From Phycisphaerales bacterium (GTDB taxonomy: Bacteria > Planctomycetota > Phycisphaerae > Phycisphaerales > SM1A02): a stretch of 64,000 nucleotides of DNA. Where the stretch lies: positions 62,001-126,000 of the forward strand of contig JASMLR010000007.1 in NCBI GenBank assembly GCA_030748575.1, written 5' to 3'. This document shows, in pieces, positions 689 to 42,436 of this stretch. Position numbers and translations under genes: made by a program. Each line of letters opens with the position of its first letter. The first letter of the stretch is position 1. Under the pieces are notes generated by a model, which did not search any database, had not been told where the DNA came from, and saw only the letters and a list, made by a program, of their open reading frames with translations.

Positions 689-3600
689 TTATCGGGCTCT
701 CAGCCGAGCGGCGGCCGCCTCAAGCCACTCGGCGTCCGGCATGCCCCACGGGCGGAACTTCTCGATGGTGCCGAATGCGTCCAGGTGCAGCAACGCCCGA
801 TGCGGGCCGAGGTCGGCGGCGGTCGTGGCGTCAATCAACTGTCCCGAGTCGTTGGCCCCCATCTGGAACAGGACTCTGGCGTGGAACTCGCGTTGGCTTG
901 CCCGGCTCAGTCCGCGGTTCACGTTGTTCAGCCCGTCGTACCACAGCAGGGAGTGGATTCCGGCCACCGGACCATCCCGCAGCAGGGCGGCGAGTTGCCG
1001 GTCCGGCTTTGCGGCGGCATCGTCGTCCATGGAGAAGGAGAAGTCGTCATCGGCAGGTCGAAGTGCCGGAATGCGTCCCGGCTCCAGACCGAGGATCAGG
1101 ATGTGCGCGCCGGTGCCACGCCCGCCGCCGGCCCGCGACTCAAGGATGTCGGTGAGCCGCTGCAGTTCGGGCTGGACGTTTTGGGCGGTGACGCGCGTGA
1201 CCTGATGCGGCAACTGATCGCCGAACATGGCGAGCTGACCGGCAAACAACGCGTCCGGTGGCGCGCCATCCAGAATCCAGACCATCAGGCCCTCGGCATC
1301 CGGCGTGTCGGTTGCCGGCAGTTCGGCTGCGGCCTGCAGCAAGGCTGCGATCATCAGCGCATTGGCCGCTTCGGCGTGCTGTCCGACGAGCAGCGCGTTG
1401 GAACCGGACTGGGCCCTGAGCGTGATGTGCGTCTTGGCGGTGATCGCAATCGGATCTCCGAGCAGCAGCGGGATCGTGTCTGTTGCGGCCGGCGGGGCGG
1501 CCAGACGCTCCTGGATGGCCTCGTCGCTGGAGAGGAGGGACGGCACGTTGCCGCGAAAGACAAACTGCGGACGGTCGGCGTTCGGAAAGCGCTGGTGGTC
1601 GAGCGTCTGCAGCCCCTCGAGGATGGTGTCACGCTCCGCGTCTGCGAGCCACACCACCTGGAATGGAGTGTTCCCCTCCAACTTGCCACCGGCGTCGTTG
1701 TAGATGGCGTCGCCCGGCCGGCGGAGCATGCGTGCTGCCGGATTGTCGTCGCTCAGGATCAGGTAGGAGTCGGCCTCAGTGCACTGCAGCGCGATCCGAA
1801 CGCCCATCTGCCCGAGTGTGCTGCGGGCGAGGGAGAACGCGCCGTCGAGGGTCTGTGAACCCATCAGGACGTGCATGCCGAAGGCCCGCCCCTGACGAAC
1901 GAGGCGGTCGAGTAGCAGCCCCGCTTCCTGGGCGATCTGATCGTCATCGACGAAGAACTCCTGGAACTCGTCGACCACGAGCAGGATCCTGGGCATTCGC
2001 TGGTCGCTCTTTGCCCTCCAGCCGGCGAGATCCTGCACGCCGGCTTCCCGGAAGAGGTCTCCGCGGTGTCTGAGTTCGCGGTCCAGCTTCTGCAGAACGC
2101 TTACGCCAAACTCGCGGTCACTTTCGATGGCGATGACCCGCGCGTGCGGCAAGTGATGGTTGGCATAGGTTTGAAACTCCACACCCTTCTTGAAGTCAAC
2201 CATGTGGAACTCAATCTCATCTGGTGAGTACCAGAGCGCCAGGTTGGTGATGAGGACGTGCAGCAGCGTGGACTTGCCCGATCCGGTGCGTCCAGCAAGC
2301 AATGCATGCTGGGTGGTGCCGCGGCCGAGCGTCATCTCCAGAAACCGGTTGGCGCCCGTCTGCCCGAGGGCCACCCGCAGTTCGGTTTCGGTGCCCCGCG
2401 TCCACCTCGCTTCGGGGCTCGGCGCGATCACTTCAAATGGGACTTCCACACGCTGGCCGTCGGCCGCCGCTTCGCCCACCCGCTGCAACATGCCCGCCAT
2501 GGCTTCCGGAGGTGTTGCCGGTGGCGGCGTGTACGGGAAGTCCTTGAGGGGAGGGTTCACCAGTTCCCACCGCTCGCCGTCGAACTTCAGGCCGATGTCC
2601 GGGTCAATGCGATCTGCTGACTCCAGATGGTCCGGAATCTCCCGGTCGGTGTCACGCATGACCATGGCAATCACACCACACCGACCGCCCGAAGACAGGA
2701 TGGACTCCAGTCGCTTGGCGGCAGCGGCGTTGATGCCAGCCGGATAGTCGGCCATGACCACGGCCTGATACTGCTCCGCGATCGCGGCGGCGTGCCGGTT
2801 GTAGTGGGCGAGCGACTCGAACTCGTCTCGCAGGTAGGTTTGAATCACCCGCTCCATGTGCTCGGTGCGTTTGGCGAGTTGCTCTTCAATGTGCCTGGTC
2901 TCGGACCAGACGCGAGACACGGCTGCGTTCTCGAAGTCAGCAAGGTGCATGAAACTCGCAAATGTCTCTCCGAGTCCGACCGGGTCGGCGAGCATGAGCT
3001 TGATCATGGACGGCGGGAGCGACACGACGGCGCCGAACAGGAGCGATTGGAGCATCTGCACGCCCACTGCCCGGTGGGCAGCCGGGCAGTCGATTCGAAT
3101 GTAGTGGGCCGACTCGATGTGCAGGCCCACCGGAAGGTCAACATGGTCGGGCTCGGTCCAGGGGAGCCGTGGATCATTCGGCGGACCTGGCGGAATGTCG
3201 GCCGCGGTGACCCGAATGTGTCCAAGCGGAATCTCCGGGCATGGCGCGCTTGCGAGGGGGGCCTCACGCCACGTCTCAGACGTGACGGGCCGGACCGTCT
3301 GGGCTTCGGCATCCGACGACGCTGCGCGAAGCGACTGAAGGCCGGCGGCCGATCTCGCCCACGTGCTGGCCAGATCGGACCATCCCTCCTGGTGAGCGCG
3401 TTCGGCGGCTTCCTTTCGCTGGCTGAACTCCGACTCGATCGCGGCCGATTCGGAGGTCCGGTCCTCTTCGATCTTCTCCAGCGTTTCCCGGTGCCGGGTC
3501 TCCACCTGCTGAAGGAAGCGCTCACGCTCTTCTCGAATGAGTTTCTCTCGACGCTTGGCGTGGTCTGCGAGTTTCTGAAGATCGTCTCGTGTTTCCGGCG

Positions 3601-4528
3601 CGGCCTGGTCCAGCATGTCGCTGACCGCGGTTCGGACTTCCTCAAGTCGCGTGTTGCGGCTCTCTCTTGCGGATCGTTCCTGGTCCTTGAGCAGTTGCTG
3701 TGTGGCGTCCAGGCGGGCCGCTGCGGCGGCGACGGCCTGACCGGCAAGCTCAGCGGCCTGGTGGTTGAGGGCCCGCATATGCAGCGTGCTTCGAAGCGCC
3801 GTCGCGGCTGCGATCAGCACGCCGGCGAGGGCGGCAAGCCCGGTCCAGAGCAGGGCACTTGCCCCTTCGATCCGGCTGCACACCAGCCATGCCACCGCGG
3901 GAGGGATCAGCACCCATCCGGCGAGTTTGAGCCTGGCCAGCCAGGTGGCCCACCCTGACCTGATGGTTGCGTCCCGCATGTGCTCGGCGGTCGAGAGCAG
4001 TTCTTCAATCTGGTCAATCTCCAGGATCTCGGCCTCCGGATCCGAATCCGCTGGATCTGCCGCGCCAAGTCGGGATGCGCGGTGGTTGGCTGAGTCGAGC
4101 GTGACCTGCGCGAGGCGAACCGCCTCGGCGGCCTTCATGTGCTCAACCTCGTACAGGCTCTCGGCCATCCATCGCTTGCCCTCGGCGGACTTGGCGACCC
4201 GTGTCTGATGGCGTTCGCTGGAGTCCAGAATGCCCAGCCTGCGACGTTCGGTGCTCTCTGCAAGCGTCTCGAGGTCCCGGGTGGATGTCTCAATGGCCTG
4301 CTCGGTCCTGCGGGTTCTGGTCTCCTCGCACTCCCTGGTGGCAGACTTCACACGCTTCTTCAGCGCTTTGGTTCGGTTGTGTCGGTTGGAGTCGTTGGCC
4401 TGCGTTTCGGTTTCGTAGGCGCTTTCGATGTCATTCATGCCGGAGGCGGCGCGGGAAAACATGGAGACGACCTGCTCCACGTAGCGAAGCGCGATGCCGA
4501 CCAGACTTGAATCTTGCGTTTCGTTCAT
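689..4528 (-). CDS. FtsK/SpoIIIE-type ATPase of a type VII secretion-like locus
   Basis: A 1279-residue protein that probably powers export of the WXG100-like proteins encoded just upstream. A charged coiled-coil region fills about residues 20-190, two membrane helices lie at about 200-245, and a second coiled-coil follows at about 260-420. The first ATPase domain has Walker A GRTGSGKST at 746-754 and Walker B ILLVVDEF at 848-855. A second, repeated domain near 1040 onwards keeps the FtsK fold pattern, including the ending ARVLFQMGANDSGQLID, but its Walker A position reads LLVGQHAEAAN and looks inactive. The frame stays open upstream to 4870, but that part overlaps the preceding gene and has shadow-like composition, so I chose the ATG at 4528 (MNETQDSS). 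A TACCAT hexamer at 4551-4556 could be a local -10. Septal FtsK is unlikely because the four-helix N-terminus and DNA-reading gamma domain are absent. Confidence 0.8.
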   Translation of the reverse strand: MNETQDSSLVGIALRYVEQVVSMFSRAASGMNDIESAYETETQANDSNRHNRTKALKKRVKSATRECEETRTRRTEQAIETSTRDLETLAESTERRRLGILDSSERHQTRVAKSAEGKRWMAESLYEVEHMKAAEAVRLAQVTLDSANHRASRLGAADPADSDPEAEILEIDQIEELLSTAEHMRDATIRSGWATWLARLKLAGWVLIPPAVAWLVCSRIEGASALLWTGLAALAGVLIAAATALRSTLHMRALNHQAAELAGQAVAAAAARLDATQQLLKDQERSARESRNTRLEEVRTAVSDMLDQAAPETRDDLQKLADHAKRREKLIREERERFLQQVETRHRETLEKIEEDRTSESAAIESEFSQRKEAAERAHQEGWSDLASTWARSAAGLQSLRAASSDAEAQTVRPVTSETWREAPLASAPCPEIPLGHIRVTAADIPPGPPNDPRLPWTEPDHVDLPVGLHIESAHYIRIDCPAAHRAVGVQMLQSLLFGAVVSLPPSMIKLMLADPVGLGETFASFMHLADFENAAVSRVWSETRHIEEQLAKRTEHMERVIQTYLRDEFESLAHYNRHAAAIAEQYQAVVMADYPAGINAAAAKRLESILSSGGRCGVIAMVMRDTDREIPDHLESADRIDPDIGLKFDGERWELVNPPLKDFPYTPPPATPPEAMAGMLQRVGEAAADGQRVEVPFEVIAPSPEARWTRGTETELRVALGQTGANRFLEMTLGRGTTQHALLAGRTGSGKSTLLHVLITNLALWYSPDEIEFHMVDFKKGVEFQTYANHHLPHARVIAIESDREFGVSVLQKLDRELRHRGDLFREAGVQDLAGWRAKSDQRMPRILLVVDEFQEFFVDDDQIAQEAGLLLDRLVRQGRAFGMHVLMGSQTLDGAFSLARSTLGQMGVRIALQCTEADSYLILSDDNPAARMLRRPGDAIYNDAGGKLEGNTPFQVVWLADAERDTILEGLQTLDHQRFPNADRPQFVFRGNVPSLLSSDEAIQERLAAPPAATDTIPLLLGDPIAITAKTHITLRAQSGSNALLVGQHAEAANALMIAALLQAAAELPATDTPDAEGLMVWILDGAPPDALFAGQLAMFGDQLPHQVTRVTAQNVQPELQRLTDILESRAGGGRGTGAHILILGLEPGRIPALRPADDDFSFSMDDDAAAKPDRQLAALLRDGPVAGIHSLLWYDGLNNVNRGLSRASQREFHARVLFQMGANDSGQLIDATTAADLGPHRALLHLDAFGTIEKFRPWGMPDAEWLEAAAARLRAR

Positions 4529-4550
4529 CGTCTCGGTGAACCTGACATCT

Positions 4551-4556
4551 ATGGTA
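4551..4556 (-). promoter_or_regulatory. possible -10 hexamer (TACCAT) for the FtsK-type gene
   Basis: TGATACCAT is read on the minus strand 22 bases before the chosen start, within a 175-bp gap that holds no other gene. The same TGATACCAT string lies upstream of ugd. No clear -35 is visible. Confidence 0.3.
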
Positions 4557-4703
4557 TCAGTGCCATTGGATGTGCCTGAATGCGTGCCGCCGGATGGCCA
4601 CCCCCGCTCGCCTTCCGCTGCGATCCTTCCCATGCGGCGGGGACACCAGAAGGGCCGTGCGGGCGACACAGATGGCCTGCCCGGTTCACGCAGCCGCAGC
4701 GTG

Positions 4704-4925
4704 TCAGGCCTCCCACCCACATTCCTTTCGTACCTGTTGAAGCACCGTTGACATGGTTTGCACGGCGCTGTCAGCCGCGACGTACGCCTGGTTGAGCGGC
4801 TCGATGTACAGGCTTCCCATCCGCGCGTGCTGCTGGTCTCGCCACGAGTCTCCGGCCCGCTGCCAGACATGGGTCAACAAGGAGACTTCTTCGCGAAGGG
4901 CGGCGCCATTGGAGAGGAGGCTCAT
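4704..4925 (-). CDS. short WXG100-like protein, 73 aa
   Basis: A small helical protein with the central turn SWRDQQHARM (residues about 27-36), which matches the WRDQE turn of the 90-residue WXG100-like protein encoded two genes upstream. WXG100 proteins are helical hairpins with a W-x-G or W-x-D turn that are exported as dimers by FtsK-type ATPases. This copy is shorter than the usual 90-100 residues because the first helix is only about 25 residues long. Its ATG overlaps the stop of the coiled-coil gene by four bases (ATGA). The two Esx-like products could pair, but that is inference. Confidence 0.65.
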   Translation of the reverse strand: MSLLSNGAALREEVSLLTHVWQRAGDSWRDQQHARMGSLYIEPLNQAYVAADSAVQTMSTVLQQVRKECGWEA

Positions 4926-5530
4926 GGGGCGGTGTCCGGCTGATCCAGATCTTCTGAGTCCGGGATGCGGGTTCCCCTCTGGCCCAGATCGGTCACGGTG
5001 GGCTCGTCCTCGCTCAGTTGGTGGGGGGTTGGGAGGGGAGGCAACTCTTCGACGTATCCCTGCAGGTGCCGCTCAAGCGTCGCGAGCCATCGCGCTGCTC
5101 GTGGAAGGTCGTACTCGCCAATCTGGGCGATCCGCTGCAACTGAGCGCGGAAGATCACGGCCTCACGCTCAAGCTTCCGAGTCCACGTCTTGATGCGTCT
5201 GAGTTTCTCGTCGGCCTCTTCGCGTCGAAGTTTGGCCTTGCGGACGGCACGATTGTGATCGACGAACGATCGGGGATCGGCATCCGGCTGCGCGATGCGA
5301 GCACGCTGGAGGTCTGAGAGTGCAGAGTTCAGTTTCTGGTCACGCTTGCGGGACTCAATCTTCCAGTGCGTCACGCAGTCTGAGGTGAGCCACTGCTGCG
5401 TGCGGCGGACCTGCCCGAGGCACTCATCGACGATCCGCCGGATCGACGAGGCCGACTCGATCACCTGCCCTCGCAGGTGTCCGACGGAATCGATCGATGA
5501 AACGTTCGCCTTCTCTTTCATCAATCTCAC
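4922..5530 (-). CDS. coiled-coil protein of the type VII-like locus
   Basis: A 202-residue soluble protein with no signal peptide or membrane helix. Residues about 30-150 are rich in Arg, Lys, Glu and Leu in a heptad-like pattern, and the last 45 residues are acidic and proline-containing, probably disordered. I do not recognise a family. Four-base ATGA overlaps join it to both flanking WXG100-like genes, which argues that the products are made in fixed proportion and act together. It could be a substrate with an Esx-like helical domain, or a scaffold or chaperone. Confidence 0.65.
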   Translation of the reverse strand: MRLMKEKANVSSIDSVGHLRGQVIESASSIRRIVDECLGQVRRTQQWLTSDCVTHWKIESRKRDQKLNSALSDLQRARIAQPDADPRSFVDHNRAVRKAKLRREEADEKLRRIKTWTRKLEREAVIFRAQLQRIAQIGEYDLPRAARWLATLERHLQGYVEELPPLPTPHQLSEDEPTVTDLGQRGTRIPDSEDLDQPDTAP

Positions 5531-5799
5531 TGCTGATTCAGATAGTCTTCTGCACGCTGCGCCTTGCGGAGCAGGAACGGGACGTGGTCCGTGACGTGTT
5601 CACGGAACCGGCCGAGCGTACGCATGGTGTGCTCAAACTCGTCGGAGAACTTCTTGTGCTCCTGATCCCGCCATGAGTGGGCCAGTGCGCGGTGCCGCGA
5701 CATCAGGGCGTTCATCTGTTCGCTCATTCCTTCGGAGAATCGCCTGAGGTCGGCGGCGAACTTCCGAACTTCCCCCGGATCGATGATCGCTTTGGCCAT
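5527..5799 (-). CDS. WXG100 family protein, 90 aa
   Basis: The length, all-helical character and central SWRDQEHKKF turn (residues about 42-51) match WXG100/ESAT-6-type secreted helical hairpins. The first helix runs from about residue 8 to 40 and the second from about 52 to 88. AAAGG lies about six bases before the ATG at 5799. The gene opens the four-gene secretion-like cluster and is 41 bp downstream of the last gene of the respiratory operon on the same strand, so it may share its transcript. WXG100 proteins lack a signal peptide, as here. Confidence 0.75.
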   Translation of the reverse strand: MAKAIIDPGEVRKFAADLRRFSEGMSEQMNALMSRHRALAHSWRDQEHKKFSDEFEHTMRTLGRFREHVTDHVPFLLRKAQRAEDYLNQQ

Positions 5800-5840: not shown

Positions 5841-6320
5841 CTACGGCGCTTTGGCTGGAGGCGTCGACTGGTAGAGCCGGTCCCAGGCGCCCTCGACGCC
5901 GCCTTCAGAGATTCCTCGGATGGTTACGTGCCGTGCGCCACTGACCTCAATGACGCCTTCAACGACTCCGTCCGGGGCCAGATCAAAGTTGCGGCCGAGG
6001 AAGAAAACATTGCCTGTGTAGTGGCCGTGCAGCTCGGCGTCGCCTCCCTGAATGGCGATGTCTTCGGTGGCACCATGCAGCACGATTTCAGGACCAAAGA
6101 TCAAAGTCGGTTCCGTGATCGGCTCGGTTTCCTCAATGGCCTGTCCCTCCAGCCGCACCCACTCCGGGCCGGAGAAGCGTGCTTCGTACGCTGCGACGTG
6201 CCTGTGCAGCCGCCAGGTCGAAACGACGACCAGCAGCAGGCCGATGACCAGAACAGCGGTCAAGCCGATGCAGCCAAACTTGCCTGTGCCGCGTGCCGTG
6301 TCGGTGGACTGCTCGGTCAT
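5841..6320 (-). CDS. membrane-anchored protein with beta-helix-like repeats, 159 aa
   Basis: One membrane helix at about residues 15-36 (CIGLTAVLVIGLLLVVVSTW) follows a short polar N-terminus. The rest has short glycine-rich turns, such as HGHYTGNVFFLGRNFDLAPD, that suggest a small beta-helix or bactofilin-like fold, but no family is recognised. I chose MTEQSTD at 6320 because it makes an ATGA overlap with the gene before it. An earlier start at 6398 would lie deep inside that gene. It is the last gene of the respiratory operon. Confidence 0.6.
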   Translation of the reverse strand: MTEQSTDTARGTGKFGCIGLTAVLVIGLLLVVVSTWRLHRHVAAYEARFSGPEWVRLEGQAIEETEPITEPTLIFGPEIVLHGATEDIAIQGGDAELHGHYTGNVFFLGRNFDLAPDGVVEGVIEVSGARHVTIRGISEGGVEGAWDRLYQSTPPAKAP

Positions 6321-6805
6321 GGGGATCTGGTCCTTCGTAGGGCTCGATTGCAGGCGAACAGTCCAATGCCCAGCGGCGCGGGCAGGAGCCACGGCCACGC
6401 CGATGCGAAGGGCGGGGCGGGGTCCATGGCTGTGAACGCCCAGTCAACTTCACTGTGGATCTGGCCGCGTGCAATGGACGTCGTGACATCCCACGCTCCG
6501 GATGCCGGAAGCGTGAACTTCGCCGCATACAGAAGGCGGTTGTCGGCCTGGTCGCGGGAGGCCCGGGTCGTGATGAGCAGGCCATCCGGGCCTGCGAGTT
6601 CCAAGGTCACCTCGGCGTCCAGAACGGTGGCTCCGTGCTCCTGTTCCTGCAGAAGCACCGATACGTCGATCGGTCCGGCCCGCAGCGGGGTGGGGTCGGT
6701 CATGACCGTGACCCGCCACGGCGGCGCAGGCTGGCTGAGCCGAACAAGCCCACTGTCGCCGCAGGCGCTCGCCGCTGTGATCAGAATGAACGCGGTCCGC
6801 ATCAT
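6317..6805 (-). CDS. YtkA/FixH-like membrane protein
   Basis: A 162-residue protein with an N-terminal signal segment (MMRTAFILITAASACGDSG), a beta-sandwich-like middle (DPTPLRAGPIDVSVLLQ ... LPASGAWDVTTSI) and a C-terminal membrane helix (WPWLLPAPLGIGLFACN). This layout resembles the YtkA domain and FixH-type proteins, which sit beside cytochrome oxidase assembly genes and are linked to copper handling. The start at 6805 makes an ATGA overlap with the CtaG-polyferredoxin gene. The fold assignment is by pattern only. Confidence 0.6.
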   Translation of the reverse strand: MMRTAFILITAASACGDSGLVRLSQPAPPWRVTVMTDPTPLRAGPIDVSVLLQEQEHGATVLDAEVTLELAGPDGLLITTRASRDQADNRLLYAAKFTLPASGAWDVTTSIARGQIHSEVDWAFTAMDPAPPFASAWPWLLPAPLGIGLFACNRALRRTRSP

Positions 6806-9099
6806 GGCAGGATGGTCCCACGCATCTGCATCGGCTGCAGGACCAACCAGACTCCGAAGGCAAAGAGAAGCACGGCGGGAATGCTGAGGATGGCGGTCGT
6901 CAAGGCCGATCGATGCGTGCCGATACTTCGAGCCACGCGATGCAGGACGACCACTGTGAGAATCAGCCCCGCGTCCAGCAGCAGCAGTTCCAGCGGGAGC
7001 AGCCAGTCGGGGACCGCTAGGCAGCACGCCATGGCCCAGGCGGGCTCGCCGAGGTTCAAGCCCGCGTCTGCGGCGATTCGCTGGGTGACAGGGACAATCG
7101 TTCCCAGGCCGGTGAGGAAGTGAAACAGCATGTGGACCAGCCACATGGCGAAGCCAATCGGCACCAGCGCGAGCGAGAGCCTGCAGGACATCGCCTTCAG
7201 CCCGATCTGCCACTCCCCGGTCCGCCTCGCCCAGGCGGCGATCGGCGGTATGAGGGCCAGCGGCGCAGCAACACCGATGCCCAGGAGCACGACGGTCGCC
7301 GGAATCAGAGGTGTCGCCGCCCCGATGGATGCCGCTACCGCGTCCTCCCACGAGAGAATCGGGCCGACCATGCCAGCCGCATTGGCGAAGGCGCCGAAGG
7401 TCAACAGCGCGGCGATCGCGGCGATGTCGAGCCGCCCGGACATGCGGCCGATGGATCCTCGCCAGCCCGAGTAGGCGCTGTCGACATGCACCCGCCGCGT
7501 TGTAAGCCCCACGTTCTCGTGCGGGCAGGCCCGAACGCAGTCCATGCAGAACGTGCAGTCGAGGTTGCCCCGCTTAGTCGGAATGTACAGGTCCAGTTCA
7601 CAGCCTCGTCCGGACGGGCCACCGCGTATGCAGTCTCGTGTGGTGCAGGATCGGCATGTGTCCTGATCGATCGCTCCGACTTCTCGCGGCGAGATCAACG
7701 CTTCGACGAAGTGAAACTGGCCGATGGGGCAGATCCACCGGCAGAATGCAGCGCCCCGAAAGAAGGAGTCCACCACCAGCGCCGCTGCGAAGTATCCGAT
7801 GACGACCCAGGCGGTCCACCACGGCGAGTCCCACAGGCCGAAGACCTCGTATGCCCACAGGTACACCAGCAGCAGCGTGGCGGCCAGCCACTTGTTGCGC
7901 AGCGCCTTGGGCCAGCGGCGGGTGGGAAGGAACAACCGCTTGCCGAGTTCGCGAGGGAGCATGAAGGGGCACGCCCAGCAGAAGGCGTTTCCCGCGACCA
8001 GCAGCGCAATGACGACGAGCCCGCGCCAGTGTGTCCAGGGCAGGACGCCCGCGAGGTTCATCGGGCTGAGGTGCGGACCGAGCAGCCCGTCAATGACGAC
8101 CATCGCCGCTGCGGCGAGCATGATGCCTTGCACGACGCGGCGAATCCGAAGGTCGGTCAGAATCCGGCCCAGCAGCGGTGTCCTGAGCAGGTCCGCAGGC
8201 CGTGTGCCCCGCGGCAGCGCGCCGCCGCCGCCGCCAATGATGGGGAGTGCGACCGATGTCGGACCTCCGACCCCCGCCAGCGCAAGCCGAGGCTGGAGCA
8301 ACTTCTTGACGATGACTCCGAGCGGCACCAGAAACGCCGCCGAGCCGGCGACCCACATGATGGCGCCCGCCACTTCCTGGTCCTGCACGGTTCCGATGCC
8401 GAGGAGGTCCGGGTGCGCCGCGTAGGCGCCGTAGATCGGGGTGTCGCGAAAGACGAAGATGGCTGAGAACAGCGTGTTTTGCAGATCCGCGGCCAGGAGG
8501 TACGGAAGCAGCATCCACTTCGGCCAGACCGCGCGGCTGGGCCACGGCTGAACGACCGGCCACCAGAAGAGCAGGGCCGTGCCAAGGAAGACCGCGTGCT
8601 CGACTTCATGCCATCCCGCGCTGCGAAGGGCAAGTTCGTAGCACGCGGGAAGGTGCCAGATCCAGGTCGCCGCGACCAGCAGCGACCAGCAGACCACCGG
8701 ATGGGTCAGGTACGAGAAGAGCGTCCGCACCCGGCGCGACGCTATGAACGGTCCCACCCAGTCGCGGCGTATGGTCGGCGGAAGGCCTCGGAGCATGGGA
8801 ATGCCCGGGCACCCCAGGAGGATGAGGGGTGGCCCGATCATCATGAGCAGGATGTGCTGGACCATGTGGGCCTGAAGCAGCAGCCCGCTGAGCGCGTCGA
8901 GCGGGGAGGCGATGGCCACCCAGCACACCACCACGCCAGCGGCGAAGGCGGCGGCCCGCCAGGGCGGAATGTGCTGGGCCATCGCATCGGGCCGGCCTCG
9001 CCAGCCTCGCCAGTAGATGATCAACGCGGCTACGCAGCACGCAGTCGGCCAGAACTCAATGGTCCACGAGGACAGAATGGCGCGCGTCGCGTCGGACAT
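6802..9099 (-). CDS. CtaG-type oxidase assembly factor fused to a 4Fe-4S polyferredoxin
   Basis: A 765-residue membrane protein made of two modules. Residues 1 to about 290 have the multi-helix layout of CtaG (caa3_CtaG), needed for copper insertion into cytochrome oxidase in Bacillus, with motifs such as HMVQHILLMMIGPPLILLG. Residues about 325-540 resemble the membrane polyferredoxins NapH, NosR and CcoG: two CX2-3CP motifs (CWACP near 373, CRWICP near 450) flank membrane helices, followed by clustered cysteines CRSCTTRDC (about 479) and CTFCMDCVRACP (about 514). A further helical region ends the protein. No frameshift is needed, so this is a true fusion. It lies 20 bp downstream of the cytochrome b gene. 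It may deliver electrons for copper reduction during oxidase assembly, which is inference. Confidence 0.75.
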   Translation of the reverse strand: MSDATRAILSSWTIEFWPTACCVAALIIYWRGWRGRPDAMAQHIPPWRAAAFAAGVVVCWVAIASPLDALSGLLLQAHMVQHILLMMIGPPLILLGCPGIPMLRGLPPTIRRDWVGPFIASRRVRTLFSYLTHPVVCWSLLVAATWIWHLPACYELALRSAGWHEVEHAVFLGTALLFWWPVVQPWPSRAVWPKWMLLPYLLAADLQNTLFSAIFVFRDTPIYGAYAAHPDLLGIGTVQDQEVAGAIMWVAGSAAFLVPLGVIVKKLLQPRLALAGVGGPTSVALPIIGGGGGALPRGTRPADLLRTPLLGRILTDLRIRRVVQGIMLAAAAMVVIDGLLGPHLSPMNLAGVLPWTHWRGLVVIALLVAGNAFCWACPFMLPRELGKRLFLPTRRWPKALRNKWLAATLLLVYLWAYEVFGLWDSPWWTAWVVIGYFAAALVVDSFFRGAAFCRWICPIGQFHFVEALISPREVGAIDQDTCRSCTTRDCIRGGPSGRGCELDLYIPTKRGNLDCTFCMDCVRACPHENVGLTTRRVHVDSAYSGWRGSIGRMSGRLDIAAIAALLTFGAFANAAGMVGPILSWEDAVAASIGAATPLIPATVVLLGIGVAAPLALIPPIAAWARRTGEWQIGLKAMSCRLSLALVPIGFAMWLVHMLFHFLTGLGTIVPVTQRIAADAGLNLGEPAWAMACCLAVPDWLLPLELLLLDAGLILTVVVLHRVARSIGTHRSALTTAILSIPAVLLFAFGVWLVLQPMQMRGTILP

Positions 9100-9119: not shown

Positions 9120-10601
9120 TCAGGAGTCGGGAAGGATCGGAGGCACTGGATCCTGCGTTGGACGCGGATTCATGGGGTAGCCGGCGGCTGGCTCGTGTTG
9201 CCAGTCCGGAGTCATCGTGAGCAGGAATGCCGTCAACGCGGTGGTTTCCTCGGGAGAGAGGTGCTTGCCGTACGCCGGCATGTTGCCGCCACCCTGAATG
9301 ACCTGCCTGATCAATTGATCGCCATTGAGCCGCGTCGCGACGTCATCAAGGGCGGGGCCACGCTTGCCGCCCTGCCCGCCAAGCATGTGGCAGTTGCGGC
9401 ACTGTTTGTTCTGTACCACGATGGCGCCCTGCAGTTGCAGGGGGGTTCGCCCCTTGACGTAGGCCGGAGGCGTCGGGATGCCGCTCCAGGCATCCATGAC
9501 GGGCGACCAGGGCGCGAGGTAGCCAAGGTAGGTCAGCGTGCCGAGTGACAGCACGAGCGTGAGGACGAACGCGACCGAGATGGGGCGTCGCCGCCAGTGC
9601 TTCTCTCCACCGCCCGAAAGGAAGGGAAGGAGGAAGAGGGTGCCGATCGCAAGAATCGGGAATCCCAGGATCAGGAACGTCTCCATGTACGGAGGGAGCA
9701 ACGCCAGGACCGCGAAGATTGACTGGAAGTAGAAGTCGGGTCGAGGTGCCGTCTGAACGAAGGAGGGGTTGGGCTCACCCGCTGGACCACTCGGACCGAA
9801 CATCATGGCGCAGAAGAACAGCAGGCCAAGTGTGAGGCCGCACGCGATCATGTCGCGGCCGGCTGCGTTTGGGAAGAACGGCATGCCACGCTTCTCGACG
9901 AGGTCGTGGTACTTCTCCTGATAGGAGTTCTTCTCGACCAGAACGCCCGGTGTTGGTTTTTCGTTGATGCCGCACTTGATGACCAGAAGCAGGTGCAGCC
10001 CGATCAGGCCAATCAGCATGCCCGGAATCACGAACACGTGCAGCGCGAAGAACCTGCTGAGGGCTTCGCCGCCGATGATCGGGCCTCCCAGGACAAAGTG
10101 CACCAGTTCGGGTCCGATCCACGGAACGCGGCCAGCCATCGACATGCCGACACCCAGGCCCCAGTAGGAGTCCTGATCCCACCGCAGGACCTGGCCCGTA
10201 AACGCCATGCCCAGCGTGCAGAAGAACAGAAGCACGCCGCAGATCCAGGTGAGCTCACGCGGGTACTTGAACGCGCCGAACAGGAAGACCTGAATCATGT
10301 GAATGGTCATGGCCCCGACCATGAGGTGCGAGCCCCAGACGTGCAGCGCCCGGAGGAACCAGCCCATTTCGGCCTGGAACGTGATGTACTCAAGCGACTC
10401 GAAGGCCTGGCTCGCGGAGGGGACGTACAGCAGCGAGAGCGAGATGCCGGTGACGATCTGGCAGATAAAGAGGACCAGCGTCATGGATCCGAACACGTAC
10501 CACCACTTGGCGCTCCGGGGCACCGGGTGCGTCATGCTCGGCCCGACCACCTCGGTGAGGTGCAGTCGATCTTCAAACCACTTCAGGACGTTCTTCAACA
10601 T
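9120..10601 (-). CDS. qcrB: cytochrome b of a bc-type complex fused to cytochrome c
   Basis: A 493-residue subunit that oxidises quinol and passes electrons to the Rieske protein and cytochrome c. The four haem b histidines are visible as paired helices (HVWGSHLMVGAMTIH and FFALHVFVIPGMLIGLIGLH). The Qo-site motif reads PDFY (in APRPDFYFQS) where most enzymes have PEWY or PDWY. After the last cytochrome b helix a cytochrome c domain follows with one haem site CRNCH near residue 398 and an MPAYG methionine ligand. This replaces a separate cytochrome c1. The gene follows the Rieske gene by four bases. Confidence 0.9.
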   Translation of the reverse strand: MLKNVLKWFEDRLHLTEVVGPSMTHPVPRSAKWWYVFGSMTLVLFICQIVTGISLSLLYVPSASQAFESLEYITFQAEMGWFLRALHVWGSHLMVGAMTIHMIQVFLFGAFKYPRELTWICGVLLFFCTLGMAFTGQVLRWDQDSYWGLGVGMSMAGRVPWIGPELVHFVLGGPIIGGEALSRFFALHVFVIPGMLIGLIGLHLLLVIKCGINEKPTPGVLVEKNSYQEKYHDLVEKRGMPFFPNAAGRDMIACGLTLGLLFFCAMMFGPSGPAGEPNPSFVQTAPRPDFYFQSIFAVLALLPPYMETFLILGFPILAIGTLFLLPFLSGGGEKHWRRRPISVAFVLTLVLSLGTLTYLGYLAPWSPVMDAWSGIPTPPAYVKGRTPLQLQGAIVVQNKQCRNCHMLGGQGGKRGPALDDVATRLNGDQLIRQVIQGGGNMPAYGKHLSPEETTALTAFLLTMTPDWQHEPAAGYPMNPRPTQDPVPPILPDS

Positions 10602-10605
10602 GGGA

Positions 10606-11160
10606 TCAGACCGACTCCTGGAGTGTTGGAAGACGTCCGGCCTTCACCTGAAGCGAGTTGCCCTTGACACGCACTTCATAGGTGTACAGGCCGCGGGGGG
10701 GTGGGCCGGCCGCGTGCGATCCGTCTGCGTAGTAGACGCCGCCGTGGCACGGGCACATGAAGAGATTGCTCTCGGGGAACCATCTCACGGGGCACCCCAG
10801 GTGGGTGCAGTTGACGGCAAAGACCGTGAAGTCTCCGCTGTCTTCCCGCCTGACCCAGCACGGGGTTTCGGCCGTGTAGCCGTCCCAGGGCGTGCGGAAC
10901 GGATTTACGTAGGTCGCCAGTCGGGTCTGCCCCTTGGGGAACTGTTCGGTCGACCCGAGGTCCGTCCACTTCTGCCACGCGCCCTTCTTCCAGGGGCTGA
11001 AGAGGTAGCCAACCACCGGAATGGCAATCAGCAGGGCCGCGACCGTGTTGAGTGCAGCGCCGATCCAGAAGAGAAAGCCACGGCGTGACGGCTCGGGTCC
11101 CGATGGGTCACCCATCATGGCGGGGTCGGGCGCGCTGCGGTAGTCGAACTTTTCACCCAT
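10606..11160 (-). CDS. qcrA: Rieske iron-sulfur protein
   Basis: A 184-residue protein carrying the 2Fe-2S cluster that takes electrons from quinol in the bc complex. The two ligand boxes are intact: CTHLGC and CPCHGG. The N-terminus has SRRGFLF followed by a membrane helix (GAALNTVAALLIAIPVVGYL), a twin-arginine signal-anchor usual for Rieske proteins, because the cluster is inserted before export. Its start overlaps the stop of the dihaem cytochrome gene by eight bases, and the cytochrome b gene follows four bases after its stop. Confidence 0.92.
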   Translation of the reverse strand: MGEKFDYRSAPDPAMMGDPSGPEPSRRGFLFWIGAALNTVAALLIAIPVVGYLFSPWKKGAWQKWTDLGSTEQFPKGQTRLATYVNPFRTPWDGYTAETPCWVRREDSGDFTVFAVNCTHLGCPVRWFPESNLFMCPCHGGVYYADGSHAAGPPPRGLYTYEVRVKGNSLQVKAGRLPTLQESV

Positions 11161-11953
11161 GGGTCAGCCCCTCGGTCTCAGGCGTCTTCGGGGAGGGACG
11201 GAAGCCGGGTTCATTGTTCCCGGTCGGCGGATAGGGCTGCCCGGGAAACTCGACGCGGTGCGAGGTGATCCACGCGAGCAGGTCCGCAACCTGACCCTCG
11301 GTCAATGGCGTCAGTCCCTTGAACTGCGGTGCCGGGGCACCGTTCAGATTGCCGTGCCAGTCGGGCATGCCCAGGTCGGGCCGCCCGCACACGATGGCTG
11401 CTCTGATCGCCTGATCGCTTGCAAGCGCGAGGTAGGACGAGTCGATCGGGCTGCCGGCGGTCGCGCCCACTCCGTCCTCGCCGTGGCACTCGCTGCAGTA
11501 CGTGTTGAACGTCGTTCGGCCTCGCGCCGCGTCTCCGGCCTGTCCGCTCCAGTGGATGATGGGAGGGGAGTCGGCGGCGTAGGGTGGCGGCGTGGCCGCC
11601 CAGGCGGCCCGCATGCCGGACACGATCTCGTCGATCTGGTCATCGGTCATCCACCCGCCATTCTGCACGGCGTGCGGCGGCATCAACGTGCCGGCGATGC
11701 CGTCGGAGATGGTCGTTCGGAGCCATTGGTCTGTAACGAGCGATTGGTACAGCGGGTCGTTCAGCGGACGGGCCGGGCCCCAGGTGCCGTCGGCCCCATG
11801 GCAGCCCTGACAGTTGGTCGCCCAGAGCGGCTCAAAGCCGTGGACTGACGTCGGGTTGCCTCGGTCCACTTCGGGGGCGACCGGCTTGCCCGGCATCCAG
11901 TCGCAGCCCGCACCTGCTGCCAATGCGCACAGACATGCGATTCGTCTGATCAC
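11153..11953 (-). CDS. dihaem cytochrome c, probable lipoprotein
   Basis: A 266-residue exported protein with two cytochrome c domains, haem sites CQGCH (near residue 51) and CSECH (near 147). The N-terminus is a signal ending in AAGAGC, so a lipid anchor is likely. I chose the GTG at 11953 because it gives a GTGA overlap with the gene before it. The same frame continues to an ATG far upstream, but that extension lies within the preceding gene. In this operon it probably shuttles electrons from the bc complex to the oxidase. Confidence 0.85.
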   Translation of the reverse strand: MIRRIACLCALAAGAGCDWMPGKPVAPEVDRGNPTSVHGFEPLWATNCQGCHGADGTWGPARPLNDPLYQSLVTDQWLRTTISDGIAGTLMPPHAVQNGGWMTDDQIDEIVSGMRAAWAATPPPYAADSPPIIHWSGQAGDAARGRTTFNTYCSECHGEDGVGATAGSPIDSSYLALASDQAIRAAIVCGRPDLGMPDWHGNLNGAPAPQFKGLTPLTEGQVADLLAWITSHRVEFPGQPYPPTGNNEPGFRPSPKTPETEGLTHG

Positions 11954-12783
11954 TCGTCTGCTCCCATCTCGCGGGCGCCTGGGGTCTCGACGCCAATGCG
12001 TTCCAGATAGTGCCAGTTCTGCATGGTCCCGATCTTCTCGCTTCGAATGATCCACCAGCCCGTGACAACGCCGTACACCACTTGTGAGGCGATGAACCAG
12101 ATCCACTCGATGTGATCGCCAAGCGCCGGATTGACGATCGAGATCGACGCCCAGGTCAAGCCCGACCACATCAGCGGGACGAGGATCGCTGAGAAGAACA
12201 GACGCATGCGTGGAATCAGTGGGAGTGTCACGCCGTAGAGCAGTCCGACGCCGATTGACATGACAACCTGAATCAGAATGCCGACGATCAGGCCCTCCGT
12301 TCGGAAGGCGCACAACGCTTCGGTCGTCATGTCGGCGTATCCGGACAACATGGCGCCGGCGAGCAGGTTGACGGTGTACCAGAGGGACCCGTGTGAGATC
12401 AGACCCCAGACCACCGCAAAGCCGGACATGACGGCGCCACCGAGGATGCCGCCGATGATGCCGGCCGAGTACGGATGGATCTCCATCGGGATGCGGGCTC
12501 GGTGGCCGGCGTCGGACAGGAGGTGGTCGACGCCGCCCTCCTTCGGAACCACCGGTGTTGGGTGTCGGTCGGTGGCCGGCGCCGGCATTTCACGCGAGTC
12601 CGGGTTTGAGTTCCGGAACCAGATGACGATGCCGCACATCATGGTGATGAAGCCCACGGCGGCGACGACCCAGTTCGTGACCAGGCCCGCTGCCATCAAT
12701 GTGAAGCCGAAGGCCGTGAACATGGGCGCAGACGTCGGCTGCGGCAGTTCAATTCCGTGTTCGTCGTGTGGCTGCGTGCTCAT
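11950..12783 (-). CDS. multi-helix membrane protein of the cytochrome oxidase operon
   Basis: A 277-residue protein. The N-terminal 75 residues contain two helices (SAPMFTAFGFTLMAAGLVTN and VVAAVGFITMMCGIVIWF) that resemble the small subunit IV of bacterial aa3 oxidases. After a hydrophilic linker about six more helices follow, beginning with HPYSAGIIGGILGGAVMSGF. I do not recognise that second part. The start MSTQPHDEHG gives an ATGA overlap with the subunit III gene. Its place between subunit III and the dihaem cytochrome suggests a structural or assembly role. Confidence 0.7.
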   Translation of the reverse strand: MSTQPHDEHGIELPQPTSAPMFTAFGFTLMAAGLVTNWVVAAVGFITMMCGIVIWFRNSNPDSREMPAPATDRHPTPVVPKEGGVDHLLSDAGHRARIPMEIHPYSAGIIGGILGGAVMSGFAVVWGLISHGSLWYTVNLLAGAMLSGYADMTTEALCAFRTEGLIVGILIQVVMSIGVGLLYGVTLPLIPRMRLFFSAILVPLMWSGLTWASISIVNPALGDHIEWIWFIASQVVYGVVTGWWIIRSEKIGTMQNWHYLERIGVETPGAREMGADE

Positions 12784-13433
12784 TGGATTGGTTGATTCCC
12801 AAAGACGTAGACCACGAAGAACACGACGATCCAGATGCCGTCCACGAAGTGCCAGTACCACGACACCAGGTCGACCTTCTCAATGTTGCGTGGCGATACG
12901 TGCCCGAGCAGAGCCAGAACAAGGATGAGGGTGAGCACGATCAGCCCCATGGTGACATGAAAGGCGTGGAAGCCGACGAGCGTATAGAAGCAGGTGCCGA
13001 AGAGGTTCGTGCCCATCCAGACGCCGTCGTCAACGATCATCCCGTACCACTCGAACCCGGTACCAACCAGGAACACGGCCCCGCAGATCACCGTGAGGGC
13101 CCACCAGAAGATGAACGCCCCCATCCTGCCCGCCCGCATGGAGCGGATGGCGAGCCAGATCCACACGCTGCTGATGAGCAGGAAGATGCTGTTGAAGAGA
13201 ACCTTGAGCGGCGCGACCGAGACTTCCAGAACGTCCTGGGGATAGGGGCCGTTGATGTCGCGGCCGATGTAGAACAGGTAGGCCGCGATGATCGTTCCGA
13301 AGAAGGCGATCTCGGAAATGATCATGCACGTGACGCCGATCTTTCCGTTGGACATGCGGTCCTGAGGCACTGCCTCCGGGGGGGCGAGCATGGCGGGAGC
13401 GGTGGTCATGGTCGTCGTCTCCCCATCACTCAT
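12780..13433 (-). CDS. ctaE: cytochrome c oxidase subunit III
   Basis: A 217-residue subunit of the haem-copper oxidase with five membrane helices, matching the short bacterial form. Typical segments are SNGKIGVTCMIISEIAFFGT near the N-terminus, GFHAFHVTMGLIVL in the fourth helix and VSWYWHFVDGIWIVVF in the last. I start at ATG 13433 (MSDGETTT), which overlaps the subunit I stop by eight bases. A second ATG at 13409 is possible. Confidence 0.9.
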   Translation of the reverse strand: MSDGETTTMTTAPAMLAPPEAVPQDRMSNGKIGVTCMIISEIAFFGTIIAAYLFYIGRDINGPYPQDVLEVSVAPLKVLFNSIFLLISSVWIWLAIRSMRAGRMGAFIFWWALTVICGAVFLVGTGFEWYGMIVDDGVWMGTNLFGTCFYTLVGFHAFHVTMGLIVLTLILVLALLGHVSPRNIEKVDLVSWYWHFVDGIWIVVFFVVYVFGNQPIQ

Positions 13434-15102
13434 ACTTCCAGTCCGGATCGTCCGGGTGCTTGAGATCCCACAAGGGTCGCCTGCTGTGCACGACCGGATC
13501 CTCATCAAAGTTGTGGGCTGGAGGTGGTGAGGTCGTGGACCACTCCAGCGTCCATGCGTCCCAGGGATCGTCTCCTGCAATCCGGCCCTTGAAGAGCGAG
13601 TGCAAAACATTCCAGGCAAAGAGCGAGAACCCGACAAGCTGAATAATCACGCCGATCGACGACAGGAGATTCCAGAACTCCCATCCACGGTCCAGGTGGT
13701 AGGTGTAGATGCGGCGTGGCATGCCGAGCATGCCCGAAACGTGCATCGGCCCAAACGTCAGATTGAATCCGATGAGCAGCAGCCAGAACTGCCACTTGCC
13801 GAGCCGCTCATTCAGGAGCCGCCCGGTGACTTTGGGGAACCAGTAGTACACGGCGGCGAAGATCGCGAAGACGAGTCCGCCAAACAGGACGTAGTGGAAG
13901 TGGCCGACGACAAAGTACGAGTCGCTCACCTGCCAGTCGAATGGAACGGTGGCCAGGAAGATGCCCGTCAGGCCGCCCAGCAGGAACTGGCAGAGGAAGC
14001 CGGTGCTGTACAGCATCGGGGTCTCGAACCTGATCTTCCCACCGATCATGGTGGCGACCCAGTTGAACATCTTGATGCCGGTCGGCACACCGACCAGCAT
14101 GGTCGAGCCCATGAAGATGGCGTTGAGCATCGGGCTGAGCCCGACGGCGAACATGTGGTGCGCCCAGACGCCGACGCTGATGAATCCGATCGCCACCGTC
14201 GCTGCCACCATCAGCGGATAGCCGAAGATCACCTTGCGACTGAACACCGGGATGATCTCGGTCACAAAGGCGAAGCCCGGGAGAATCAGGATGTACACCT
14301 CCGGGTGCCCGAAGAACCAGAAGATGTTCTGCCACAGCAGCGCGGAGCCCCCGGCCTGCGCATCGAAGAAGTGGGCCCCCAGAAGGCGATCGAACAGCAG
14401 CATGATCTGGCCGGCCGCGAGCGGCGGAAGGGCCACGACGATGAGCACCGAGTCAATCAGCATGATCCACGCGAGCAGCGGCATCTTCATCAGGGTCATG
14501 CCCTTGCACCGCATCCCGAGGATGGTGGCGATGAAGTTGATGCCGGTCGCTGTGCTGCCGATGCCGGCAACGAAGATGCCCAGAATCCAGTAGTCGGTGC
14601 TGTGCCCTCTTGAGAAGGTTCGCTCGGTGAGTGGGGCGTATGCGAACCAGCCCACGTCGGGGGCCGATCCCATGCCATAGAGGCCCTGGCCGCCGAAGTA
14701 TGAGAAGTACAGCAGCAGCGATCCGAAGAAGAACAGCCAGAAGCCAAACGCATTGAGCCGTGGGAAGGCAAGGTCGCGAGCGCCGATCATGAGTGGAATC
14801 AGGACGTTCGCGGCGCCAAGGAGAATCGGCATGCCGACGAAGAACACCATGGTGGTGCCGTGCATGGTGAACAGTCGGTTGAACTCTTCGGGAGAGAGCA
14901 CCTCCTGCCCGGGCCACGCCAACTGCCACCGCATCATGGTGGCCTCAAGGCCGGCGATGATCAGGTACACGATGCCGCACGTGACGTACATCGTCCCAAG
15001 TTTCTTGTGGTCGACCGTGGTCACCCACTCGTGCATCCTGGACAGGAATGGCACAGGGCCGGTGGCCGCGGGTGGGCCGGCGGGTTTCTGAAGCACGCTC
15101 AC
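13426..15102 (-). CDS. ctaD: cytochrome c oxidase subunit I
   Basis: The 558-residue catalytic subunit of an A-type haem-copper oxidase, which reduces oxygen and pumps protons. All metal ligands are visible: the low-spin haem histidine in MHGTTMVFF, the CuB histidines in FGHPEVYI and VWAHHMF, and the haem a3 and a histidines in VVGHFHYVL. The Tyr of HPEVY that crosslinks to His and the Glu at the end of the D channel are present, and GVPTGIK matches the K-channel region. The GTG start at 15102 overlaps the subunit II stop (GTGA). Confidence 0.95.
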   Translation of the reverse strand: MSVLQKPAGPPAATGPVPFLSRMHEWVTTVDHKKLGTMYVTCGIVYLIIAGLEATMMRWQLAWPGQEVLSPEEFNRLFTMHGTTMVFFVGMPILLGAANVLIPLMIGARDLAFPRLNAFGFWLFFFGSLLLYFSYFGGQGLYGMGSAPDVGWFAYAPLTERTFSRGHSTDYWILGIFVAGIGSTATGINFIATILGMRCKGMTLMKMPLLAWIMLIDSVLIVVALPPLAAGQIMLLFDRLLGAHFFDAQAGGSALLWQNIFWFFGHPEVYILILPGFAFVTEIIPVFSRKVIFGYPLMVAATVAIGFISVGVWAHHMFAVGLSPMLNAIFMGSTMLVGVPTGIKMFNWVATMIGGKIRFETPMLYSTGFLCQFLLGGLTGIFLATVPFDWQVSDSYFVVGHFHYVLFGGLVFAIFAAVYYWFPKVTGRLLNERLGKWQFWLLLIGFNLTFGPMHVSGMLGMPRRIYTYHLDRGWEFWNLLSSIGVIIQLVGFSLFAWNVLHSLFKGRIAGDDPWDAWTLEWSTTSPPPAHNFDEDPVVHSRRPLWDLKHPDDPDWKYE

Positions 15103-16124: not shown

Positions 16125-16168
16125 GGAACCGGACTCCCTTTCCACCGCGGTCGTCCGCGACGTCCGGG

Positions 16169-16198
16169 AGGCTAGCACGGTCTTCGCCGTTGATGCAA
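16169..16198 (-). promoter_or_regulatory. sigma-70-type promoter for the oxidase/bc operon
   Basis: On the minus strand TTGCAT (16193-16198) and TAGCCT (16169-16174) are separated by 18 bp. The predicted start of transcription leaves a leader of about 40 bases with the ribosome binding site AAGGGAG before the subunit II ATG. Confidence 0.6.
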
Positions 16199-16204
16199 GC
16201 CGGA

Positions 16205-16210
16205 TACCCT
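16205..16210 (+). promoter_or_regulatory. possible -10 hexamer (TACCCT) for hrpA
   Basis: TACCCT lies 11 bases before the hrpA ATG at 16222, which would give a leader of only a few bases. It sits in the 97-bp divergent gap shared with the oxidase operon promoter. No good -35 is visible. Confidence 0.35.
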
Positions 16211-16221
16211 GCCGCGTAATT

Positions 16222-40913: not shown

Positions 40914-41159
40914 ATGAGCCTCCACCGAAGTTTGAAGACCAAGCCAGCCGGCCTCAACCAGCACCGCAACGTACTCACGCGTGATGAACGTGTGGCGCGG
41001 CTGATGAATGAGGGCGATTTCGACCCCGAAGCGGATTCGCCCATCGGCATGCGCAAGGTCGGGAACCGGGCCATGGTGACCAAGAAGCCCAAGAAGGAAG
41101 CAGCCGAAGAAGGCGATGTCGCTGAGGGTGTCGCCGAGGCTGAGGCCGCCGCAGAGTGA
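40914..41159 (+). CDS. small basic protein of the planctomycete/verrucomicrobial/chlamydial family
   Basis: An 81-residue protein. The first 55 residues (MSLHRSLKTKPAGLNQHRNV, then LTRDERVARL) match the small basic protein family (TIGR04137 type) restricted to the PVC bacteria, where it is very conserved and of unknown function. It is therefore a strong lineage marker. Here the basic core is followed by an acidic, Ala- and Glu-rich tail of about 25 residues, so the whole is less basic than usual. The gene begins two bases after the preceding stop, in one operon with the membrane protein. Confidence 0.85.
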   Translation: MSLHRSLKTKPAGLNQHRNVLTRDERVARLMNEGDFDPEADSPIGMRKVGNRAMVTKKPKKEAAEEGDVAEGVAEAEAAAE

Positions 41160-41216
41160 GCGTGACGCCGGCCACAGGCGGGCCGCACGCGCCCTTCGGG
41201 GTGGAGGAACGACAGG

Positions 41217-42380: not shown

Positions 42381-42397
42381 CATCAGGCAAATGAAGA

Positions 42398-42428
42398 CCC
42401 CCGTCCCGACACAAGGCCGGAACGGGGG
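42398..42428. terminator. GC-rich hairpin after the aminotransferase gene
   Basis: CCCCCGT (42398-42404) pairs with ACGGGGG (42422-42428), extended by CC/GG. It lies 18 bp past the aminotransferase stop and in the convergent gap. The minus-strand side is followed by TCTTCATTT, so it may end transcripts of the glycosyltransferase operon too. Confidence 0.45.
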
Positions 42429-42436
42429 GGAGGGGA

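Follow-up and report, generated by a model that had tools for sequence, protein, structure and literature searches.

A Caa3_CtaG domain fused to a NapH-like polyferredoxin in a caa3-type oxidase operon: a possible copper redox partner in oxidase assembly

We analysed a window of 64,000 nucleotides (nt) from a Phycisphaerales bacterium (assembly GCA_030748575.1, contig JASMLR010000007.1, positions 62,001 to 126,000), in which a gene on the minus strand at 6802-9099 joined a CtaG-type oxidase assembly factor to a polyferredoxin. An earlier annotation made from the letters alone, here called the sequence-only reading, had described both modules in one uninterrupted frame. This was confirmed, as the frame ran from ATG to TGA over 765 amino acids (aa) with no internal stop. 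The Pfam scan assigned residues 29-267 to Caa3_CtaG (PF09678; 187.2 bits, cut-off 27.7), although the match to the caa3_CtaG equivalog TIGR02737 (69.2 bits) was far under its cut-off of 279.35. From the Pfam match and the alignment of fused proteins, the CtaG half comprised residues 1-279 with seven transmembrane helices (TM; 8263-9099, minus). The polyferredoxin half comprised residues 296-765 (6805-8214, minus). Its residues 362-532 matched the NapH/MauN profile TIGR02163 with an E value (E) of 5.7e-8 and 32.6 bits, the cut-off of 213.05 not being reached, and this half may thus be regarded as a distant relative only of NapH/MauN. The CcoG profile TIGR02745 gave E 0.0093 and 14.9 bits against a cut-off of 316.7.

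The fusion gene was found near the end of an oxidase operon, all on the minus strand. The first gene, ctaC (15099-16295, start uncertain), encoded oxidase subunit II with a CuA domain and a cytochrome c domain, as in caa3-type enzymes (TIGR02866, 184.1 bits, above cut-off; Cytochrom_C, E 5.7e-10). It was followed by ctaD for subunit I (13426-15102; TIGR02891, 706.5 bits, above cut-off), ctaE for subunit III (12780-13433, likely start; Pfam COX3, E 1.1e-13) and a membrane protein gene (11950-12783), the product of which matched no Pfam family over its cut-off but had relatives in synteny. Next came genes for a dihaem cytochrome c (11153-11953, likely start GTG at 11953; two stretches of Pfam Cytochrome_CBB3), a Rieske iron-sulfur protein (10606-11160; Pfam Rieske, E 1.1e-8) and a cytochrome b with a fused cytochrome c domain (9120-10601; Pfam Cytochrome_B, E 2.9e-45, and Cytochrome_CBB3, E 1.2e-11). 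The start codon of the fusion gene lay 20 nt past the end of this last gene, and its stop codon was overlapped (ATGA) by a downstream gene at 6317-6805 (minus) for a YtkA/FixH-like protein of 162 aa. The caa3-type setting proposed by the sequence-only reading was therefore borne out by the CuA subunit with its cytochrome c domain. The YtkA/FixH-like neighbour it had invoked was present, but its match to Pfam YtkA (PF13115; E 0.015, 16.4 bits) was under the cut-off of 25.9.

Beyond the YtkA-like gene, a small protein with no Pfam family over cut-off was encoded at 5841-6398 (minus), relatives of which, among the 80 loci described below, were confined to those with Phycisphaerales or Phycisphaerae in the title. 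Farther on, an FtsK/SpoIIIE-type ATPase gene (692-4870, minus; E 3.4e-29) lay near a WXG100 protein gene (5530-5799, minus; E 1.6e-7), making a type VII secretion-like pair in a genome with Phycisphaerales as its closest relatives in this analysis.

To the polyferredoxin half, predicted helices and hydropathy gave a layout of four TM, a segment of iron-sulfur motifs (about residues 447-556) and five TM. Two CXnCP motifs, CX2CP (374-377) and CX3CP (453-457), were followed by two [4Fe-4S] cluster motifs, C482/C485/C490/C500, with the unusual spacing CX2CX4CX9C, and C515/C518/C521/C525. All four motif cysteines and both clusters were invariant in 67/67 fused proteins, as were all ten pairs of cluster and motif cysteines examined. 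Loss of the cysteine ligands, which would have weakened the idea, was accordingly not observed. In the CtaG half, H78, M79, H82, H149, H164, H168 and D240 were invariant in the same 67 proteins, and the set recurred in 12 other CtaGs aligned with the protein P0001. The C-terminal bundle carried M652 (65/67), H656 and H660 (both 67/67) at spacing i, i+4, i+8, and a C-terminal QPMxMRG in which M757 and M759 were kept in 66/66 fused proteins.

Lysine and arginine counts over the 67 fused proteins fitted an outside N-terminus, cytoplasmic clusters and an outside C-terminus; the signal was clear for the first 12 loops, as far as the iron-sulfur segment, but faint in the final bundle. This topology is thus indicated as a prediction, and on it the CtaG His/Met/Asp set would lie at the periplasmic face. 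The AlphaFold model built on the 67-sequence alignment had a mean predicted local distance difference test score (pLDDT) of 89.3 and a predicted template modelling score (pTM) of 0.64, with one low-confidence stretch, the linker at residues 272-296 between the halves, that is likely disordered. The polyferredoxin half modelled alone gave pLDDT 88.8 and pTM 0.91. Foldseek found no match to this half in the PDB at E ≤ 0.001, and its best VIA match had Z 6.6 with a root-mean-square deviation of 8.2 over 167 residues. Foldseek and VIA-align 2 returned nothing worth quoting for the whole model or for this half, a result from which neither a new fold nor a lack of relatives follows, and the PDB sequence searches gave no relevant match.

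The same pair of domains was then sought in other genomes. An alignment of nine polyferredoxin halves, scanned against genome_contigs, had 485 confirmed matches; the 80 best of them were retained. In 72 of these closest 80 loci, a ratio that does not describe all 485, the CtaG domain and the polyferredoxin shared one frame (Planctomycetota 48, Verrucomicrobiota 16, Acidobacteriota 8), so the pair was not unique to the window. The other eight were one locus cut by a contig end (L057) and seven unfused loci, six from Gemmatimonadota and one from Chloroflexota. In evenly drawn genome samples, 3/294 genomes of the window's phylum, 12/298 of its class, 3/288 of Verrucomicrobiota (the phylum of G296) and 3/297 of Acidobacteriota (the phylum of G295) carried a fusion that spanned the two halves. 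For two of the 12 class fusions (G443, G522) the match was split into two pieces, both listed with one frame length; the class sample also held two partial frames across the junction (G419, G459) and a match in three different frames (G579), and 14 of the 21 sampled genomes of the window's own family had a match. These counts show that the fusion is recurrent yet patchy across genomes. With both domains in one frame in the 72 loci and the 12 class genomes, the fusion is confirmed as real, neither a chance product nor an assembly join. As a separate observation, more distant polyferredoxins (L011-L017, L019, L020, L023; 28-33 % identity, frame lengths 518 to 859 aa) occurred in several Planctomycetota families, and a few of them had cytochrome c genes no more than 10 kb away.

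The operon context recurred with the fusion. Where the fetched stretch left room, cytochrome b adjoined the fusion gene in 50/59 fused loci and CtaD lay upstream in 39/45; a relative of the YtkA-like gene lay downstream in 56 of the 67 loci having at least 700 nt of room. The six loci without CtaD were L074, L075, L093, L096, L098 and L110, and a Pfam scan of ten neighbours of L074, L093, L096, L098 and L110 showed none linked to copper or oxidase.

Comparison with known systems placed the polyferredoxin half away from CcoG. When nine polyferredoxin halves were aligned by hhalign with single sequences, NapH came first (E 2.6e-11, 164 columns), followed by YccM (E 4.3e-10) and NosR (E 1.6e-8), with CcoG last (E 1.9e-6, 17 columns). 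The sequence-only reading had called this half NapH/CcoG-like; by none of the tests made here was it a CcoG, and that part of the proposal was not borne out in this form. NapH and YccM of E. coli have, in the same order as the fusion, two CXnCP motifs and then two [4Fe-4S] motifs; both of their CXnCP motifs are CX3CP, whereas the first motif of the fusion is CX2CP and its first cluster CX2CX4CX9C. Unlike NapH, YccM and NosR, the fusion has an extra five-TM C-terminal bundle and is surrounded by cta and bc genes, not nap or nos genes, so that the linkage of NapH/MauN to nap or mau was not found here.

The likeness to CcoG/FixG is one of order and of oxidase assembly context. In one Variovorax CcoG, after whose gene a FixH gene follows, the four cysteine modules have the order of the fusion, as two CX3CP motifs and two CX2CX2CX3C clusters, against CX2CP and CX2CX4CX9C as the first of each kind in the fusion. 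The comparison of the 4Fe-4S region with CcoG and NapH called for by the sequence-only reading thus kept the cysteine ligands, with an unusual first cluster and CcoG remote. In passages of PMC7558416, CcoG reduces Cu(II) in vitro, carries two tetranuclear clusters, acts in oxidase biogenesis and has a C-terminal Ig-like periplasmic domain, which homologues such as YccM also lack; the fusion instead ends in the five-TM bundle, with the YtkA-like protein separate. Its operon encodes an A-type caa3 enzyme, unlike the cbb3 enzyme of CcoG.

The CtaG half is of Bacillus type. It shares with B. subtilis CtaG the Caa3_CtaG match, seven predicted TM, the His/Met/Asp set and a place at the end of a caa3 locus, and differs in the extra 470-residue polyferredoxin and in falling far under the TIGR02737 cut-off. 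In B. subtilis the activity of caa3 depends on CtaG, and whether CtaG serves CuA or CuB is given as not established (passages of PMC13344008); the copper (CuB) role of Bacillus-type CtaG is called tentative in passages of PMC9145763. Copper delivery by CtaG, stated outright in the sequence-only reading, was therefore worded too firmly. The parts of PMC9145763 covered also describe CtiP of Corynebacterium glutamicum, in which CtaG is likewise joined to a copper-tied membrane protein in an organism with a bc-aa3 supercomplex, and the loss of which destabilises the bc1-aa3 supercomplex. In CtiP a CopD homologue precedes CtaG, whereas in the fusion a polyferredoxin follows it. Passages of PMC13344008 implicate SCO and CtaK (YtkA) in the assembly of CuA in B. 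subtilis, and there YcnJ/CtaK brings a YtkA-type domain into a pathway also involving CtaG; in YcnJ the YtkA domain is joined to CopC-CopD, whereas in the window the YtkA-like gene follows CtaG-polyferredoxin. The C-terminal bundle was considered separately as a CopD domain, without support among the Pfam matches of nine polyferredoxin halves at E up to 1.

Unfused polyferredoxins were found in another setting. In the Gemmatimonadota/Chloroflexota loci the order SCO1, YtkA, polyferredoxin held in 7/7, and a gene like the YtkA-like gene of the window followed in 6/7. Among eight other unfused loci, one of which (L038) begins at a contig end, seven had the order His-rich membrane protein, YtkA, polyferredoxin and a small gene without a Pfam match. 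Four scanned upstream YtkA genes of unfused loci passed the Pfam YtkA cut-off, and no bc or cta genes of the window's kind were found in the unfused loci. The adjoining SCO1 and/or YtkA genes support a copper-redox role of the polyferredoxin in oxidase assembly. The His-rich membrane protein (L037:10976-11605, minus; L034 about 8364-8954; L035, L036, L192, L195 and L005) had invariant HWAEH, WHHxEH and C-terminal CxCA in six aligned copies and no Pfam family over cut-off; its identification as a short CtaG was rejected (hhalign probability 1.8 %). In the Gemmatimonadota locus L100, a gene for a ZnuA-type periplasmic metal-binding protein (7663-8757, minus) adjoined and diverged from the SCO1-YtkA-polyferredoxin genes.

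Partners were also counted genome by genome. The fused copy was the only CtaG in 7/8 fused genomes tested, and a separate CtaG was present in 5/5 Gemmatimonadota/Chloroflexota genomes. SCO1 occurred in 16/16 and COX1 in 18/18 genomes tested, and Cox11 in 0/18, including the eight fused ones. CcoG passed its cut-off in 1/16 genomes tested, one with an unfused polyferredoxin, and in none of the eight fused genomes. CopD, tested in 18 genomes, was over cut-off in 0/8 fused genomes (one match below it in G121), in 5/5 Gemmatimonadota/Chloroflexota with a separate CtaG and in 0/5 Planctomycetota with an unfused polyferredoxin. Genome G000 had a second COX1 gene (C44, about 40996-44340) with an SCO1 gene about 1.6 kb away; its only CtaG match was the fused one on C77, and the other oxidase seems to manage without CtaG.

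CtaG also occurred without the polyferredoxin. At 15 places with 38-53 % identity over the CtaG half CtaG stood alone, and 14 of these were fetched (all but G1147), being Acidobacteriota operons from 13 genomes with the same gene order as the fused operons. Neither the polyferredoxin nor the YtkA-like gene gave a match in the fetched stretches, and the profile of the polyferredoxin half found nothing at E 0.001 in 11/13 genomes, with weak matches (E 1.2e-8 and 2.3e-4) in the other two. In a CtaD tree with outgroups, the 14 operons formed one group (100/100) nested inside the fused ones by branches of 98/95, 99/97 and 95/83. The simplest reading of this nesting is one joint loss of the polyferredoxin half and the YtkA-like gene, which is probable given the outgroup used: the tree held 43 of 59 rows (16 fused rows left out for thinning) and ten outgroup oxidases of our choice, with a long-branch warning for L171, and the nesting depends on that outgroup. 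Without an outgroup, the tree of 59 rows parted fused from CtaG-only operons by one branch, gain and loss being indistinguishable. In a quick tree of 102 polyferredoxin rows, 13 unfused copies fell within the fused ones at forks with Shimodaira-Hasegawa-like approximate likelihood ratio test values of 80-91. Constraining all 74 fused rows to a single clade gave a higher likelihood, with a p value in the approximately unbiased test (p-AU) of 0.764; five of the 102 rows had been dropped for this test, namely L057, which is cut at a contig end, the duplicate L063 and the long-branched L025, L026 and L030. A single fusion event is therefore compatible with the polyferredoxin sequences, not proven by them. 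Of the conditions that the sequence-only reading named as weakening the idea, a break of the fusion in relatives was thus true in part, with CtaG alone in an Acidobacteriota lineage and the polyferredoxin alone in other genomes.

Computation has shown the fusion, its operon, the invariance of the ligands and the SCO1/YtkA surroundings of unfused copies. Given this gene context and these ligands, the polyferredoxin looks like a copper redox partner in CtaG-dependent caa3 assembly, though its NapH-like sequence leaves a respiratory role possible. We tentatively propose, at somewhat less than even chances, that the protein serves caa3-oxidase assembly and that its Caa3_CtaG module has its own membrane redox module keeping copper as Cu(I). 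Electrons from a cytoplasmic or quinol donor would enter at the two cytoplasm-facing [4Fe-4S] clusters and pass via the CXnCP motifs into the membrane bundle. Copper would be kept as Cu(I) at the periplasm-facing CtaG site (H78, M79, H82, H149, H164, H168, D240), with the C-terminal bundle (M652, H656, H660, M757, M759) perhaps part of a Cu(I) site. CtaG would then supply Cu(I) to the CuB and/or CuA site of the oxidase encoded by the same operon, and the YtkA-like protein would be a periplasmic partner. We infer copper as the substrate, the direction of electron flow and the copper site served. The proposal is favoured by the single frame, its recurrence, the caa3 operon and the invariant candidate ligands; by the precedents of the CtaG-CopD fusion CtiP and the cupric reductase CcoG, as far as the source passages go; and by the eight fused genomes without CcoG over cut-off or Cox11, in seven of which the fused CtaG is the sole one. 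Overall, the sequence-only reading was partly supported, in architecture and operon and not in CcoG identity. A stronger version, in which a single membrane-embedded polypeptide both reduces copper and inserts it into A-type caa3 oxidase, seems doubtful to us. In it, electrons from the iron-sulfur clusters would cross the membrane and make Cu(I) at the CtaG site, with the polyferredoxin in the position that CopD has next to CtaG and YtkA in Gram-positive bacteria.

Several results weigh against the proposed copper redox role. Five Planctomycetota genomes of 84-92 % completeness had an unfused polyferredoxin but no CtaG match; the polyferredoxin must therefore have some role without CtaG, and conversely the 14 CtaG-only operons presumably work. 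The polyferredoxin half is by sequence nearer to NapH/YccM/NosR than to CcoG. An invariant histidine pair able to bind a membrane haem was not found in this half, in which H656 and H660, four residues apart, are the only such histidines. Nine of the 59 fused loci lacked an adjacent cytochrome b (L074, L078, L083, L087, L093, L096, L098, L103, L110) and 11 of 67 a YtkA-like match, and no His, Met (past the start) or Cys was conserved at 60 % or more in the YtkA-like family.

In the best surviving alternative, which we regard as unlikely, the polyferredoxin half belongs to a bc-caa3 supercomplex and moves electrons during respiration, either as a carrier like NapH or as a module that oxidises quinol, with CtaG only as its anchor. 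The best profile match is indeed to NapH, with the NCBIfam name quinol dehydrogenase ferredoxin subunit, and the fusion gene lies directly behind the cytochrome b and Rieske genes. Against it, unfused copies lie beside SCO1 and/or YtkA, with no bc or cta gene of the window's kind found in those loci, and 14 sister operons lack it. The low potential usual for such clusters would also fit oddly into a chain of high potential.

Two further explanations appear improbable, to a similar degree. The polyferredoxin half might reduce the cysteines of SCO or of the CuA site in place of copper, a role consistent with SCO1 beside the unfused copies in 7/7 Gemmatimonadota/Chloroflexota loci and in all 16 genomes tested; the Pfam scan, however, found no thioredoxin-like domain in the fused protein, and the 67 fused proteins had no invariant cysteine pair on the predicted periplasmic side. 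Alternatively, the five-TM bundle might move copper over the membrane, as is proposed for CopD, with the clusters reducing or gating on the cytoplasmic side. The M652, H656, H660 spacing would suit such a transporter, as would CopD being fused to CtaG in C. glutamicum (PMC9145763, passages) and to a YtkA domain in YcnJ (PMC13344008, passages), and its absence over cut-off from the eight fused genomes but not from the five Gemmatimonadota/Chloroflexota genomes. CopD is equally absent from the five Planctomycetota with unfused copies, so this pattern may be phylogeny; moreover, CopD was not among the Pfam matches of the polyferredoxin halves, and no solved fold clearly matching this half was found by Foldseek or VIA.

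A still poorer account is that halves with different jobs were joined since they are made together. Each half stands alone in some genomes and the linker is likely disordered, but one fusion kept through three phyla is compatible with the polyferredoxin tree (p-AU 0.764), and one separation suffices for the CtaD tree. An assembly artefact is next to impossible, being already contradicted by the same-frame pair in 72/80 loci, among them those on the chromosome sequences NZ_CP036339 (Lacipirellula limnantheis) and CP036279 (Pan216).

CtaG and polyferredoxins are each known, and their joining in this operon is a new form of these known kinds. No published description of the CtaG-polyferredoxin fusion was found in listings and abstract starts of open-licence papers; a term search of PMC9145763, a review of oxidase assembly proteins, gave no occurrence of ferredoxin, Fe-S or Planctomycetes, and the passages of PMC8239418 covered do not mention it. 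Passages of PMC13344008 infer interactions from natural fusions and discuss whether oxidase assembly calls for a cupric reductase close at hand, of which CcoG is an example; for organisms without CcoG, such a localised reductase figures there only as a possibility.

The fusion in three phyla ties the function of Caa3_CtaG to this question of a localised cupric reductase. It points to a possible reduction of copper at the place of its insertion, and gives a handle on the poorly understood CtaG of many soil and water bacteria, including the apparent isolates Lacipirellula limnantheis I41, Pan216 and Acidobacteriaceae KBS 96. The CtaG-only sister operons, without the iron-sulfur half and the YtkA-like gene, offer a natural control. 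If true, the stronger version of our proposal would add a second class of bacterial cupric reductases, independent of CcoG, and would mean that Caa3_CtaG acts on Cu(I).

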